Notes under the pieces: generated by a model
Database searches by the model: none
What the model was told of the DNA's origin: nothing
The model's input: the letters and a program-made list of their open reading frames with translations, nothing else
Made by a program: the position numbers and the translations under genes
In this document: positions 49,056 to 54,294 of the stretch, in pieces
Numbering within the stretch: the stretch's first letter is position 1
How the letters are laid out: every line of letters starts with the position of its first letter
Origin: Flavivirga sp. 57AJ16
GTDB taxonomy: Bacteria > Bacteroidota > Bacteroidia > Flavobacteriales > Flavobacteriaceae
Length of the DNA stretch: 64,000 nucleotides
NCBI RefSeq assembly: GCF_028736925.1
Contig: NZ_JAQZAT010000004.1
Span: forward strand, 124,001 to 188,000
Direction of reading: 5' to 3'

Positions 49056-49970
49056 ATGTTTGGAAAAAAGAAAGCACGCCCTCAAATAGATCAAGAGCAA
49101 TTAGAACTGATTCAAAATGCTCAAAAACGTATTAAACAGAAGAAACGTTTATACTTTCACTTTGTGCTTTTTCTAATTGGTTCTATATTTATAATCCTCG
49201 CTAATACCGTTCTGGATATCGGTAAAGATTTCACCCCTTTTGGAAAGGAATGGTTTTTATCCGCCATTTTTGTCTGGCTCTTTTTCCTTCTTTACCATGT
49301 GTTTAATGTGTTTATTACACATAAATTTATGGGAAAAGCCTGGGAGCAAAAACAATTGGACAAACTAGTTGTTCAACAAAAACTAAGAATAGAACAACTT
49401 AAAAATGAACTTGAAAAAGAAGCACCTCATATTGCTGAAAGTGAACACTATAACAAATCTTTAAAGAAAAAAGAAAAAACATCTGAACTGACTATTGTTG
49501 TTGCTGCTGCAGAAAATAATGCCATTGGTAAAGACAATAAGCTCATCTGGCATTTAAGTGACGATTTAAAGCGCTTTAAAAACCTGACCAATGGCCACCA
49601 TATTATCATGGGGAGAAAAACATTTGAAAGTTTTCCGAAGCCCTTACCTAACAGAACGCACATTGTTATTACAAGACAAAATAATTATCAAGTACCCGAA
49701 GGCGTTATTGTGGTCAATAGTCTAGAAGACGCCATTAGTGCCGTAAAAAACGACTCGCAACCATATATAATTGGTGGTGGCGACATATACAAACAAGCCC
49801 TATTATTAGCTGATAAAATTGAATTGACACGGGTTCATGAAGATTTTGAAGCAGACGCTTTCTTTCCCGATATTGATCCATCTATTTGGAAAGAAACGGC
49901 TAATACCTTCCATACTAAAGACGACAAACATGACTATGAGTTTTCGTTTTTGACTTATGAGAGGAAGTAG
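49056..49970 (+). CDS. folA: Membrane-anchored dihydrofolate reductase (2TM-DHFR fusion)
   Basis: The 304-residue protein has two parts. The N-terminal 145 residues form a 2TM domain: an amphipathic Lys-rich start, membrane segments at about 34-51 and 66-86 with the family words FHFVLFL and HVFNVFITHKFMGKAWE, and a coiled-coil linker (about 95-125). The C-terminal part (about 146-304) is DHFR: TIVVAAAENNAIGKDNKLIWHLSDDLKRF (with the catalytic acid at Asp170), HHIIMGRKTFESF, NRTHIVITRQNNY and YIIGGGDIYKQAL. DHFR regenerates tetrahydrofolate used by ThyA. Flavobacterial genomes usually encode the 2TM and DHFR parts near each other; a fusion of this kind anchors the enzyme to the membrane. Both domains appear intact. 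Confidence 0.85.
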   Translation: MFGKKKARPQIDQEQLELIQNAQKRIKQKKRLYFHFVLFLIGSIFIILANTVLDIGKDFTPFGKEWFLSAIFVWLFFLLYHVFNVFITHKFMGKAWEQKQLDKLVVQQKLRIEQLKNELEKEAPHIAESEHYNKSLKKKEKTSELTIVVAAAENNAIGKDNKLIWHLSDDLKRFKNLTNGHHIIMGRKTFESFPKPLPNRTHIVITRQNNYQVPEGVIVVNSLEDAISAVKNDSQPYIIGGGDIYKQALLLADKIELTRVHEDFEADAFFPDIDPSIWKETANTFHTKDDKHDYEFSFLTYERK

Positions 49971-50103
49971 ATCAGGACTTGATTTTGTAAAAATTTTCAA
50001 CTAACTTCGTTTGGCATAAAATATGAAACGACATGTGCTGAACTTGTTTCAGTATTATGATGGTTTCATATTAAGTCATTGGGGCACATTTAAAAAAAAC
50101 ATA

Positions 50104-52629
50104 ATGGTAGATTTTAGAAAAAGACTTAATAAGCCTGAAATAGAGAAAAAAATTAATCCAATTGAAATTTATAGCTCATTGGATAGGAGAAGTGTGGCTG
50201 GACCATTAAGACCTGCACAACATAAGATTCTAACTGAATGGTTTGATTCCAGATTAAATGAAAAAGATTTAATTATTAAGCTACATACAGGAGAAGGCAA
50301 AACTCTAATTGGCTTATTAATTTTACAATCAAAAATAAATTCAGGAAATGGACCTTGCCTTTTCGTATGTCCAAATAAATATTTAGTAGCTCAAGTAAAA
50401 AGAGATGCTAGAAAATTTGGAATTAATTTTTGTTCAATCGAGGATGATGGTTCTTTACCAAATGAATTCATCGATGGAGAAAAACTTTTAATAACACACG
50501 TTCAAAAAGTTTTTAATGGAAAAACAATTTTCGGTTTAGGTAACGACTATATTCCTGTTTCAAATATCATTCTCGATGATTCACACGCTTGTATAGATTC
50601 TATTAAAAATACATTTACCATAAATATTACCCGAGAACACGATTTATATTCAGAATTGTTTGAGTTGTTTAAGGATGCTTTGCCAGAACAAGGAGAGGGA
50701 ACTTTTTTAGAAATTTCGAATGGAGATTATAATTCTTTCTTACCAATTCCATATTGGAATTGGATAGATAAATCTGAAGAAGCGTTGGAAATTTTATCAA
50801 AATATAGGACTGAAAATGAAATCGCATTTTCTTGGCCTTTCATTAAAGATAGCATAAAAAACTGTCAAGCATTTGTTTCTGGTAATAACATTGAGATTGC
50901 ACCAATTCACATACCGATTGAGAAGTTTTCTTCATTCAATAATGCAAATCAAAGAATCTTGATGTCAGCAACAACTCAAGATGATTCTTTTTTTATTAAA
51001 GGTCTTGGGTTTAATGCTAATGCTATTCAAAATCCATTACATAATCCCGAACAACTATGGTCTGGAGAAAAAATGCTTATTATTCCTTCACTAATAGATG
51101 ACACTTTAGATAGAGATAAAATTGTAAATATAATGGCTAAACCAAGTGAAAAGAAATTTGGTATTGTTTCACTTGTATCCTCTTTCAAAAAAACAGAAAC
51201 CTATAAAAAACTTGATTCTATTGTTCCAAAATCGGGAGAAATTGGAGCTGCAGTTGACCACCTAAAAAAGAGAAATTTTAGACAAACAGTTGTTTTTGCA
51301 AATAGATATGATGGGATAGATTTACCTGATGAAACCTGTAGAATTCTTATTATAGATGGACGACCTTATTTTTATTCTCTTGCAGATAGATATGAAGAGT
51401 CAAATCGTTTAGGAAGTGATTCTTTGAACATTAAAATTGCTCAAAAAATTGAACAAGGATTAGGCAGAAGTGTCAGAGGAGAAAAAGATTATTGTTTAAT
51501 CTTTCTAATTGGTGCTGATTTAATTAAGTTCATCAAAAGTTCAAGAACAAATAAATACTTTTCTTCTCAAACAAAAAAGCAAATCGAAATAGGAATGGAA
51601 ATTGCAAAAATGGCTTCAGAGGACATAAGTGATAAAACTGAACCTTATGAAGTAATTAGGTCGTTAATGCTTCAATCAATTCAAAGGGATGAAGGTTGGA
51701 AAGAGTTTTATAAAGAAGAAATGAATAAAATTCAAGCTAATAATTCTTCTAGTAAAATTTATGACGTTTTAACTCTTGAAAGGAAAGCTGCAGTTTTAAA
51801 TTATACTGGCGAATACGAAAAAGCAAGAAATTTAATTCAAGCGATTGTTGACAAACATTGTATAGATGAAAGTGAAAAAGGTTGGTATATGCAGATTATG
51901 GCTAGATATGCCTATCTTTTAAGTAAAACCGATTCCAACACACTACAAAAAAGTGCTTTTCTTAAAAATCACGAGCTTTTAAAACCTAAAGAGGGTATTA
52001 CATACAAGCGTTTAGAATTCATAAACGAAAATCGCACTAAACGTATTTTGGAATGGGTAAAACAACATCAAGATTTTGAAGATTTAATGTTATCAGTTGA
52101 GGATGTACTTGCTGATTTACAATTTGGAACATCTGCTGAAAAATTTGAAACTGCATTTAAAGAATTAGGGCATATGTTAGGTTTTTTAAGTGAAAGACCT
52201 GATAAAGAATTTAAAAAAGGTCCAGACAATTTATGGTGTGGTGTTGGGAATCAGTATTTCATTTTTGAATGCAAAAGTGAGGTCAAAATTGAAAGAACAG
52301 AAATCAATAAACACGAAGCTGGTCAAATGAATACACATTGTGCTTGGTTTGAAGGTCAATATTCTGATGCGCCAGTTCATAGAATTTTAGTTATACCAAC
52401 TAAAAACCTTTCTTATCACGCAGATTTGACTCATAAAGTGCAAATTATGAGACGAGGTAAGTTAAAATCTTTGAGACATAATGTTAAGTCATTTCTTAAA
52501 GAGTTCAACAAGTATGAAATTGAATCTCTAACGGACGAGAAAATTCAAGAATTCCTTAATATGAACAAATTAGATATTGATTCTTTAAAGACAGAATATT
52601 CAGAAAATTACCGAAAAAAAACTAGTTAA
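50104..52629 (+). CDS. XPD/DinG-like helicase fused to a PD-(D/E)XK nuclease (putative defence protein)
   Basis: The start MVDFRKRL was chosen because the in-frame ATG 81 bp upstream is followed by a repeat palindrome. Of 841 residues the first ~480 are a superfamily-2 helicase: Walker A HTGEGKT at 61-67, motif II DDSH (159-161 region, LDDSHA), motif III MSATTQD near 287, and the XPD/DinG-type block VVFANRYDGIDLPDETCR...IDGRPY (396-421) with QGLGRSVRGEKD at 451-462. An alpha-helical, TPR-like stretch spans about 550-650. The C-terminal ~170 residues carry a restriction-endonuclease-like site: Asp708 in GPDNLW, and Glu722 and Lys724 in FECKSE. I see no four-cysteine FeS set between motifs I and II, unlike DinG/XPD. 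The gene stands alone in AT-rich accessory DNA and is followed by a folded element. A phage-defence role is inference. Confidence 0.7.
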   Translation: MVDFRKRLNKPEIEKKINPIEIYSSLDRRSVAGPLRPAQHKILTEWFDSRLNEKDLIIKLHTGEGKTLIGLLILQSKINSGNGPCLFVCPNKYLVAQVKRDARKFGINFCSIEDDGSLPNEFIDGEKLLITHVQKVFNGKTIFGLGNDYIPVSNIILDDSHACIDSIKNTFTINITREHDLYSELFELFKDALPEQGEGTFLEISNGDYNSFLPIPYWNWIDKSEEALEILSKYRTENEIAFSWPFIKDSIKNCQAFVSGNNIEIAPIHIPIEKFSSFNNANQRILMSATTQDDSFFIKGLGFNANAIQNPLHNPEQLWSGEKMLIIPSLIDDTLDRDKIVNIMAKPSEKKFGIVSLVSSFKKTETYKKLDSIVPKSGEIGAAVDHLKKRNFRQTVVFANRYDGIDLPDETCRILIIDGRPYFYSLADRYEESNRLGSDSLNIKIAQKIEQGLGRSVRGEKDYCLIFLIGADLIKFIKSSRTNKYFSSQTKKQIEIGMEIAKMASEDISDKTEPYEVIRSLMLQSIQRDEGWKEFYKEEMNKIQANNSSSKIYDVLTLERKAAVLNYTGEYEKARNLIQAIVDKHCIDESEKGWYMQIMARYAYLLSKTDSNTLQKSAFLKNHELLKPKEGITYKRLEFINENRTKRILEWVKQHQDFEDLMLSVEDVLADLQFGTSAEKFETAFKELGHMLGFLSERPDKEFKKGPDNLWCGVGNQYFIFECKSEVKIERTEINKHEAGQMNTHCAWFEGQYSDAPVHRILVIPTKNLSYHADLTHKVQIMRRGKLKSLRHNVKSFLKEFNKYEIESLTDEKIQEFLNMNKLDIDSLKTEYSENYRKKTS

Positions 52630-52631
52630 AA

Positions 52632-52790
52632 AAACTGTGTGCAACAGGCACAATGGCTATAAGTAATTGCTTGTTCTCGCATACTTCTGAAAATCCTCGC
52701 GGATTCAGTTTGGTGTGCACTTGCAAAATTAAGTACCAAACCACGCAACAAGCCATACAAACACATTAAAAAAACATCTCCATAAATTCC
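52632..52790. other. Folded non-coding element downstream of the helicase-nuclease gene
   Basis: The 160-bp region has nested complementary segments: ATGGCT against AGCCAT, GCTTGTT against AACAAGC, and an inner hairpin CTGAA...TTCAG around TCGCGG (near 52690-52703). The outer ends TGTGTGC... and ...CAAACAC are also near-complementary. It looks like the long hairpins that follow accessory gene modules in Bacteroidota, possibly recombination or attC-like sites; no integrase is visible here. Confidence 0.4.
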
Positions 52791-52797
52791 CAAACCC

Positions 52798-54294
52798 CTA
52801 ACCAAAAGATTCCATCACATCAATATCCTGCATCGCTCTTTTAAATCGCTTAACAAATTCCCTAGCCTCCGTTTCGTTATAACAGGAAAACCCCATTCTT
52901 ATGGCATTATGCTTAAGGTCCATGGCATCATAACGTTGCCATTCTGAAATAATTAATTTTTGTTGTTTTGCCGCTTTTGTAACCACATCCCACGAATAGT
53001 TTTTATTTAAGGTGACCCATAGCGCCATGCCTCCTTTGGGAATATCGAAAGACAAATAGTCACTTAATGCTTCCTTAAGAAGCTTACAGAACAGGTCGCG
53101 TCGCGCTTTATATATTTTAACAACCTTTTTAATATGCCTGTCCAGGCTCCCCTCTTTAATAAAATTAGAAAATGTTAATTCCAGAATAGCATCGCCTTGT
53201 CTGTCTACAAAACGTCGCAATCGCGCACATTCATCCACAAAAGTTTTTGGTGCGATTAAATATCCCACCCTAAAAACGGGCGCTACTGTTTTACAAACAG
53301 AACCCACATAAATAACGTTCCCATGCGTATCATGACTCGCTAAAGGTAAAATAGGCGCATGGTTATAATGAAAATCGTAATCATAATCATCCTCAAGAAT
53401 GGCAAAATGATGGGTCTTGGCCAAATTTAAAAGATGCATTCTCCGTTGTGCAGACAGCGTAACCGTTGTTGGATGGTGATGATGTGGCGTGGTATAAACC
53501 GCTTTAACAGCATACTTATTACAGAGTTTTTCTATGGCGTTTGTATCCAATCCGTTTTTATCCACTTTGACTCTTAACAATTTAGCCTTGGCAAATTCAA
53601 ACGTTGTATCCGCCGAACTATAATTGGTCTCTCCTACTATAATATACTCTTGCTTTTCAATTAATAATTGAGATGCCAAAAACATCCCCATTTGGCTGCC
53701 TCTCGTTATAAGGATATTATCTTTAGTAATATTTAATCCCCTGGTTTCATTCAAATAACTTACCAAAGTGGCTCTTAATTCCGGATTGCCATGGGTCGTT
53801 CCATAATTCATATATTTAAGCGTATTCTTTTTATTCGCAATCTTTCTATAAATAATGGACAGTTCTTTAATGGGAGCTAGCCTTTCGTCTGAAACACCAT
53901 CGTTGACATACATATAATCATCTGTATAATCTTGTGGAAACTTTCGATCCAATACAGGGCTTCGCTTAAAGGCAAATCCTGTATCATCACTCTTTTTACC
54001 AGCAGTCTTTTCAACCCACTTTTGCTGCTGCAATATGGGAATATCCTTATGAACAAAGGTGCCTTTTTTCGGGATGCTCTCTATCCACCCCTGTAATGTT
54101 AGCTCTTCGTAACAAGCTATCACCGTTTTTCTATGCACTCCTATTAAACCTGACAAGGTCCTACTGCCAGGTAATTTAGCCTGTGGCGGAAGGGTGCGTT
54201 CTTTGATTAAATCTATAAATTGATTGGTGAGTTGAATATAAACAGGTTGTTTACTCGCTCGGTCTATTTTTATAATGGTTTTATAAGGAATCAT
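52798..54294 (-). CDS. MocR/PdxR-type transcription regulator (GntR HTH + aminotransferase fold)
   Basis: The 498-residue protein has an N-terminal GntR-family winged helix (YIQLTNQFIDLIKERTLPPQAKLPGSRTLSGLIGVHRKTVIACYEEL) and a C-terminal type-I aminotransferase domain, the MocR architecture that senses pyridoxal phosphate. The PLP-binding Lys lies in GSVCKTVAPVFRVGYLIAP. PdxR members activate pyridoxine synthesis or salvage genes in other bacteria. Here it is divergent from a flavin-binding oxidase gene, so a target other than vitamin B6 synthesis is plausible. It reads as a functional regulator. Confidence 0.9.
   Translation of the reverse strand: MIPYKTIIKIDRASKQPVYIQLTNQFIDLIKERTLPPQAKLPGSRTLSGLIGVHRKTVIACYEELTLQGWIESIPKKGTFVHKDIPILQQQKWVEKTAGKKSDDTGFAFKRSPVLDRKFPQDYTDDYMYVNDGVSDERLAPIKELSIIYRKIANKKNTLKYMNYGTTHGNPELRATLVSYLNETRGLNITKDNILITRGSQMGMFLASQLLIEKQEYIIVGETNYSSADTTFEFAKAKLLRVKVDKNGLDTNAIEKLCNKYAVKAVYTTPHHHHPTTVTLSAQRRMHLLNLAKTHHFAILEDDYDYDFHYNHAPILPLASHDTHGNVIYVGSVCKTVAPVFRVGYLIAPKTFVDECARLRRFVDRQGDAILELTFSNFIKEGSLDRHIKKVVKIYKARRDLFCKLLKEALSDYLSFDIPKGGMALWVTLNKNYSWDVVTKAAKQQKLIISEWQRYDAMDLKHNAIRMGFSCYNETEAREFVKRFKRAMQDIDVMESFG

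Follow-up and report, generated by a model that had tools for sequence, protein, structure and literature searches.

Two questions are raised by a helicase-nuclease gene, hna, in Flavivirga sp. 57AJ16 (Flavobacteriaceae; GCF_028736925.1): what its product does, and how it came to lie between genes for a dihydrofolate reductase and a MocR-type regulator. The window analysed is a stretch of 64,000 nucleotides (contig NZ_JAQZAT010000004.1, positions 124,001 to 188,000), in which a sequence-only reading had taken the gene for an accessory antiphage gene, set beside palindromes and a folded element, that matched no named defence system and might be undescribed. By sequence and predicted fold, the gene is instead Hna (helicase-nuclease abortive infection), a new member of an already described single-protein phage defence. 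It very probably works by the known mechanism and was acquired horizontally, the likeliest vehicle being one cassette of an integron-like system. The cassette vehicle is an apparently undescribed integron variant, of which hna is probably a solitary cassette; the news lies in the setting of hna rather than in the gene itself.

Identity of the window protein as Hna

The 841-residue window protein matches the PADLOC model PDC-S28 at 1082 bits over model positions 1-829 of 831, and PDC-S28 can be equated with Hna because the chain of Sinorhizobium meliloti Hna itself scores 1017 bits with this model. A phmmer search of the PDB returned one strong sequence (entries 10UJ, 9YHN and 9YKJ; 762 bits), with the next match at 16.5 bits; 10UJ and 9YKJ are Hna of S. 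meliloti (PMC13381803). The AlphaFold2 model of the window protein, built with a 19-row Hna alignment that includes this protein (mean predicted local distance difference test score, pLDDT, 82.9; predicted template modelling score, pTM, 0.74), has as its top Foldseek match 9YHN, 'Hna Monomer', with template modelling (TM) scores of 0.88 (query) and 0.90 (target) at 42% identity; below the Hna entries follow DinG, CasDinG and XPD, with query TM-scores of about 0.3-0.4. PADLOC, the PDB search and the structure match all return full-length Hna, so the idea of an undescribed family falls. The suspected nuclease domain is contained in the full-length match of the model to 9YHN, and the antiphage role that had been read as probable agrees with full-length similarity, in sequence and model, to the Hna defence family.

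The motifs on which the sequence-only reading had based a fusion of a superfamily 2 (SF2) helicase with a C-terminal nuclease are all present (HTGEGKT, DDSH, SATTQD, QGLGRSVRG, GPDNLW and FECKSE), and Asp708, Glu722 and Lys724 are correct in the 841-residue numbering. Motif II is indeed DDSH and not DEAH, which is no oddity of the window copy, DD[SA]H being the rule of the family (19/19 rows). A TPR-like linker had also been suggested; between residues ~488 and 691 the model shows nothing but helix. Residues R36 and Q39 of S. meliloti Hna map to R36 and Q39 of the window protein, and P712/D713/E727/K729 to P707/D708/E722/K724; none of these six residues varies among the 19 aligned members. Pfam assigns generic helicase domains only (ResIII, 3.2e-11; DEAD, 6.2e-9; Helicase_C_2, 2.8e-8), and an NCBIfam scan of the 841-residue protein yielded sub-threshold matches, with no model over its cut-off. 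The single open frame (50023-52629, plus strand) would encode 868 residues from an in-frame ATG at 50023, adding 27 residues to the product of the ATG at 50104. The latter start is preferred because it coincides with the first residue of the S. meliloti chain and because an MVDF N-terminus occurs in 15 of the 19 rows; the other four matches begin three or five residues later.

The window protein thus resembles Hna in full length, domain order (HEL1-HEL2, then C-terminal nuclease), motif II, R36/Q39, nuclease PD/E/K residues and fold, and differs from the S. meliloti protein in its 42% identity, in the change of T30/D31 to S/V, in its phylum and in its putative cassette setting, its function here being predicted from sequence. 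It shares the SF2 helicase core with DinG, CasDinG, XPD and ExoDinG; the nuclease of ExoDinG is N-terminal, unlike the C-terminal nuclease of Hna. ExoDinG is also a 3'-5' exonuclease of single-stranded DNA (ssDNA), and S. meliloti Hna is distinguished from DinG, XPD and ExoDinG by a reduced Arch domain and by having no iron-sulfur cluster (PMC13381803); in the window protein, the sequence-only reading saw no cysteine set for such a cluster. Nhi and Hachiman likewise combine helicase and nuclease and are stimulated by single-stranded DNA-binding protein (SSB; PMC13381803), and Hachiman is reported to sense DNA damage (PMC12278908). The PADLOC models for Nhi and Hachiman did not match the window protein at E-values (E) up to 1, a threshold at which PDC-S28 (two models), typeIV_DinG and DpdF were the only matches.

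Predicted mechanism

The biochemistry and cryo-electron microscopy structure of Hna are already published (PMC13381803). The S. meliloti enzyme is a Mg- or Mn-dependent 3'-5' ssDNA exonuclease for which no unwinding was seen; ATP binding stabilizes an inactive homodimer via the N-terminal helicase domain, and phage SSB breaks this dimer, whereupon the C-terminal PD-(D/E)XK nuclease becomes active (PMC13381803). The nuclease activity is toxic, mutants with higher nuclease activity being more so, and abortion of infection through this toxicity is the proposal of the authors (PMC13381803). Since homology and fold extend over the full length and both active sites are complete, the window protein would likewise be an ATP-restrained 3'-5' ssDNA exonuclease released by phage SSB, and by analogy we infer the same ATP-inhibited, SSB-triggered and abortive mechanism.

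The dimer loop counts against transferring every detail of this mechanism. The loop has been described as highly conserved in Hna, and three of its residues were mutated (PMC13381803). These residues, T30, D31 and P34, map to S30, V31 and P34 of the window protein: P34 is kept, the change of T to S is conservative and D31 is lost. D31 is found in none of the 19 aligned rows, position 30 is S or E instead of T, and only P34 is common, being kept in 15 rows and missing from the four of a divergent group (31-32% identity). With D31 lost and T30 replaced, the published autoinhibition contact may therefore differ in the window protein.

The hna site and its breakpoints

Among the 12 genomes of the genus, the reductase and regulator genes always lie on one contig, facing each other, 1.4 to 6.9 kb apart, and what lies between them varies: hna in the window genome (G000), a gene with a glycosyl-hydrolase-53 (GH53) match in G011, a unit of two genes in G001 and G007, and others. 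Five of the 12 (G000, G001, G003, G007 and G011) share a left motif ATTAAGT[CT][GA] and, near the regulator, the right flank CAC[AG]^TTAA, where a caret marks the breakpoint, and different genes occupy the space between the same two breakpoints in the four sister genomes of G000. These replacements, together with an attC-like palindrome of ~130 nucleotides directly behind hna, are why hna is read as a cassette, and they suggest that an integron-like system delivered it as one cassette. Compared over 11 bases, the two ends of the unit at this site are complementary at 10/11 in G007 (P 0.003) and 9/11 in G001 (P 0.044), and more weakly in G011 (9/11, P 0.061) and G003 (8/11, P 0.143). G000 and G011 have strong copies of the repeat here (97.7 bits in the latter), and the corresponding interval of G005 holds one of 38.6 bits. 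These scores come from a covariance model, R1, built from 13 copies (aligned out of 20 taken up), the window copy among them.

In G004 (L059), the reductase 3' end recurs behind a HipB/HipA-like pair, recognized by eye, which has the appearance of an insertion with target duplication. A tRNA-borne island was rejected as an account of the site, a tRNA finder having returned no tRNA in the window. None of five proteins from the two neighbours and three open reading frames of sister cassettes (L051, L053) was matched by PADLOC.

Cassette arrays in the genus and family

The repeat behind hna belongs to a widespread class. BLAST of the window copy against its own genome gave, counting the query, 25 matches with E no higher than 1, and 16 of these fall below 1e-5. 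R1 finds the repeat in all 12 genus genomes, at 17 to 58 copies each (E up to 0.01), and, of 100 family genomes, 79 contain it, representing 78 of 99 genera (E up to 1e-6); the candidates scored per genome numbered 150 in the genus search and 33 in the family search. Many copies form arrays, and two sets of these were studied: 20 genus stretches from ten genomes (18 with two or more copies, two with a single copy), and 12 stretches from 11 other genera, which are independent of the set-up of the test. Stretches were picked for repeats, recombinase or array ends, so that recombinase counts among them are not those of a random sample. Within each of the 20 genus stretches, all repeat copies used lie on one strand, and 95% of open-reading-frame bases are on the array strand (73 intervals).

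For successive copies, the 11 opening bases of a cassette were compared with those in front of the next copy: cassettes in these arrays open with G^TTNNNNNN and close with its reverse complement. The genus comparison used 104 of 122 repeat matches: seven overlapping matches on the opposite strand, which mirror the palindrome, were removed, as were 11 whose E exceeded 0.03. It gave 84 successive pairs, and scoring was limited to the 63 that were less than 4 kb apart and had a GTT. Of these 63, 29 were complementary at 9/11 or better, whereas 2000 re-pairings averaged 2.3 and reached 10 at most. For the other genera all 66 matches were used, and 35 of 50 scored pairs reached 9/11 or better (2000 re-pairings: mean 2.4, maximum 9), including 31 of the 35 pairs spaced by under 1.2 kb. 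In an integron cassette the two ends (the R' and R'' boxes of attC) are complementary to each other but differ from those of other cassettes; the core consensus is GTTRRRY/RYYYAAC. Dense arrays were also observed in G078 (L128-L129), where 40 kb hold 25 repeat copies (E up to 0.01) and listed matches span ~60 kb on one strand, and in G081 (L132), with 15 copies at E up to 0.01 in 20 kb.

Complementary ends also occur at some relatives of hna itself, namely at L011, L013, L014 and L021, four of 18 correctly read loci (P<0.05, uncorrected; about one expected). L004 and L014 are one place. The paired ends of L011 (GTTGGGC/GCCCAAC) and L014 (GTTAGGC/GCCTAAC) fit the integron core, and L011, L013 and L014 carry TGTGCCCAAC or TGTGCCTAAC where the window has TGTGTGCAAC. 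By eye, TGTGCCYAAC is common to these three loci, directly past the hna stop and across genera, and the sequence downstream of it differs, as if attC interiors had been swapped behind a conserved gene.

Cargo was scanned for 110 of 133 array open reading frames, the 23 left out being mostly short or on the opposite strand. Among the 25 of 89 PADLOC families listed, single array frames match Nhi (3.3e-173), AbiO (8.4e-171), PDC-S13 (2.9e-118) and reverse transcriptases; among the 25 of 70 Pfam families listed are a beta-lactamase family (5 members), ParE toxin (2), SUKH (2), NADAR and others. The Nhi, AbiO and PDC-S13 matches therefore point to other defence-type genes carried in arrays. The Nhi and AbiO matches are possibly one and the same protein.

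Several observations weigh against placing hna in this system, the weakest point being its own unpaired ends: the two ends of the hna cassette are complementary at 7/11 (P 0.57), which is not significant, and the cassette was for this reason placed by flank comparison and repeat and not by its termini. A search of the window with R1 found no second copy, so that the hna repeat stands alone. The left flank motif is missing in seven of the 12 genus genomes, among which there is also no empty reductase-regulator site, and of the four other flank-sharing genomes only G011 has a strong repeat (27 bits in G007, 20 in G001 and 19 in G003). Among 22 hna loci (L003-L024), R1 matches occur only at L013, where they are weak (28 and 21 bits), and end pairing falls short of significance at 14 of the 18 correctly read loci, so that paired ends are no general rule. 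Finally, tblastn of 15 genus stretches that had not been chosen for a recombinase found no full-length recombinase relative, and short pieces in L113.

Recombinases beside the arrays

A compact tyrosine recombinase of the XerC/XerD type would be the enzyme that moves the cassettes. Five of the 12 genus genomes encode a tyrosine recombinase at E 1e-30 or better, and in all five it lies 0.3-2.9 kb upstream of a repeat on the same strand, the repeat in G000 being weak (25 bits). Against the XerA/integron-integrase model NF040815 (cut-off 220), these five XerC/XerD/XerA-like recombinases reach 212-241 bits, and against the IntI model (cut-off 265) 180-209 bits. Their match to the IntI profile is broken, between ~179 and 244 in the G000 recombinase and into two pieces in the other four; the missing middle we take to be the IntI-specific domain. 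An alignment of 12 array-side recombinases with one another, no IntI among them, shows no inserted segment. Weak matches to the IntI profile mean nothing alone, because sub-cut-off matches occur in all 14 control genomes at E 0.001 (and in none of the 14 at 1e-30).

Full-length relatives of the recombinase are present in seven of the 12 stretches from other genera, with a remnant in L139. The recombinase is on the array strand and upstream of the repeats in L128, L130, L131 (by 8 kb), L135, L136 and L138, and on the strand opposite to the array in L134; tblastn found no relative in L129 (which lies inside an array), L132, L133 or L137. In L113 (G006), five recombinase pieces of 46-88 residues are strung along one array, near positions 2702, 4055, 5545, 8158 and 12706.

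These results bear on the possibility that the arrays are remnants of ordinary IntI integrons after loss of the integrase, that is, clusters of attC sites lacking an integron-integrase (CALINs). Their R'/R'' architecture is of the attC type, and CALINs are common in general (PMC9024848). A search confined to the genus found IntI over the TIGR02249 cut-off in none of the 12 genomes, for which an IntI integron is rejected, and a different type of recombinase adjoins arrays in several genera; loss of an IntI integrase is accordingly considered unlikely. The arrays resemble integrons and CALINs in their one-strand cassettes, ~130-nucleotide imperfect palindromes, G^TT breakpoint and complementary R'/R'' ends, and resemble integrons further in the tyrosine recombinase near some arrays and in an accessory cargo that includes defence genes, hna itself lying outside any array. 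They differ from integrons in their XerC/XerD/XerA-like recombinases, which stay below the IntI cut-off, in the lack of IntI from the 12 genus genomes, and in an R' box that consists of GTT plus variable bases, as against the strict GTTRRRY.

Taken at the level of the family, the evidence tips slightly towards a widespread and unnamed class of integrons, with ~130-nucleotide attC-like arrays, compact XerC/D-like recombinases without the IntI-specific domain and a stock of accessory and antiphage genes, among them an Nhi/AbiO-type gene in an array and hna as a lone cassette between housekeeping genes; hna would then spread among Bacteroidota partly as a cassette. Searches of one open-access library, which has no preprints, turned up no description of such a cassette system. 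Bacteroidota are listed among the integron-bearing phyla (PMC8618304, PMC9668308), and the system may thus be a known one under a different name, since the phylum is already so listed. One survey credits Bacteroidetes with one complete integron, in Salinibacter, preceded only by integrase-only elements, and gives in that statement no number of integrase-less clusters (PMC9024848).

Folding of the repeat

The arrays also bear on how far the repeat can be explained as a miniature inverted-repeat transposable element (MITE), a repetitive extragenic palindromic (REP) element or a terminator, with a genuine hna beside it and variation of the site by ordinary homologous recombination. The ends of the hna cassette are not complementary, and the folding data give this explanation some room. 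The palindromes and folded element of the sequence-only reading are represented here by the repeat at 52644-52775, a single copy that does not fold significantly better than shuffled sequences (z -1.56; 16 of 200 shuffles as good). RNAalifold on the 13 copies gives a weak consensus of -4.97 kcal/mol with an unfavourable covariation term of +0.83. A hand-written structure of outer arms and a central hairpin pairs 81.9% of cells in the 13 aligned copies, and sliding it by one to three columns lowers this share to 27-44%; the 81.9% is biased upward because the structure was derived from the same sequences. Compared with 500 shuffles, its number of paired cells was reached by 17, its cells changed on both sides by 6 and its covariation score by 13, and its pairs changed on both sides and its further pair types were reached by 264 and 248, respectively. 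Transposons and MITEs have constant termini, and neither these elements nor terminators should show paired ends private to each copy. In the arrays, by contrast, the complementary pair of ends differs from cassette to cassette, repeats and genes run on one strand, and a recombinase adjoins some arrays, so that a MITE, REP element or terminator is a decidedly improbable explanation.

A known structured RNA at the locus was rejected, since Rfam gave no match at gathering score within 48-55 kb, and a sequence pattern for its right-hand end had no match within the window.

Distribution of hna

The gene hna is horizontally acquired. It is present in one of the 12 genus genomes, that of the window, and in eight of 397 sampled family genomes; its absence from the other 11 of the genus bears out the earlier description of it as accessory. 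A scan of named genomes gave 15 hna loci, 14 in Bacteroidota and one in an Omnitrophica metagenome-assembled genome. By tblastn, 214 of 72,556 plasmid records contain a relative, and 108 of these 214 are predicted to be conjugative; one of 50,697 phage records contains a relative too. Relatives with 54% identity were observed on Salmonella plasmids of ~37.6-37.7 kb and in a single Salmonella entry among the phage records. By eye, the divergent genes L006, L007 and L008 (31-32% identity) end next to tRNA-like sequence, and at L018 such sequence precedes the gene.

This sporadic occurrence speaks against a housekeeping DNA-repair helicase-exonuclease of the ExoDinG kind. The fold does resemble DinG and XPD, and Hna has been compared with ExoDinG (PMC13381803), but a repair role sits poorly with one of 12 genus genomes, eight of 397 family genomes and 214 plasmid records, as with query TM-scores of ~0.3-0.4 for DinG and XPD against 0.88 for Hna, and it is very improbable. 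An undescribed defence system with a helicase-nuclease of a new family, for which the want of an NCBIfam model at cut-off and the merely generic Pfam domains might speak, is ruled out for practical purposes by the full-length PDC-S28 match, the 1017 bits of S. meliloti Hna with that model and the structural TM-score of 0.88.

Features of the locus

The preferred reading of the locus, Hna in a probable solitary cassette, is set out by position in Table 1. The 2-kb bin that holds most of hna has a guanine-plus-cytosine fraction of 0.302, second lowest among the 32 bins of the window.

Table 1. Positions of hna, its motifs, the putative cassette and the flanking genes in the window (carets mark breakpoints)
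Feature	Position	Strand	Basis
Left neighbour: 2TM-dihydrofolate reductase	49056..49970	+	Pfam DHFR_1 + 2TM; in 12/12 genus genomes
Putative hna cassette unit	50079..52765	+	Breakpoints A^TT at 50078/50079 (left) and 52765/52766 (right)
hna, 841-residue SF2 helicase / PD-(D/E)XK nuclease	50104..52629	+	PADLOC PDC-S28, PDB phmmer
Dimer-loop equivalent and ATP-coordinating R36, Q39 (residues 30-39)	50191..50220	+	Pairwise mapping to S. meliloti Hna
Helicase motif I (Walker A) HTGEGKT	50284..50304	+	T62, G63, G65, K66, T67 invariant 19/19
Helicase motif II DDSH (D158, D159, H161)	50575..50586	+	DD[SA]H in 19/19; D158, D159, H161 invariant
Helicase motif VI QGLGRSVRG	51454..51480	+	Q451, G452, G454, R455, V457, R458 invariant 19/19
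Nuclease active site PD...ECK (P707, D708, E722, K724)	52222..52275	+	Invariant 19/19; S. meliloti equivalents
R''-like box TGTGTGCAAC just past the hna stop, probably degenerate	52636..52645	+	Read from sequence
attC-like imperfect palindrome, ~130 nucleotides, closing the putative hna cassette	52644..52775	+	Covariance model R1, 130.5 bits
Right neighbour: MocR-type GntR/aminotransferase regulator	52798..54294	-	Pfam Aminotran_1_2 + GntR; in 12/12 genus genomes

Significance

For hna alone, little changes: a copy from another phylum that has neither of two published dimer-loop residues can serve to test the generality of the ATP-dimer switch. If the arrays are active in recombination, they would constitute a cassette system of the superintegron type across a bacterial family, with the repeat in 79 of 100 genomes sampled. 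If this system runs without IntI, it would become possible to test where the IntI-specific domain and cassette recombination came from, and the arrays would offer a further route for the movement of defence genes.

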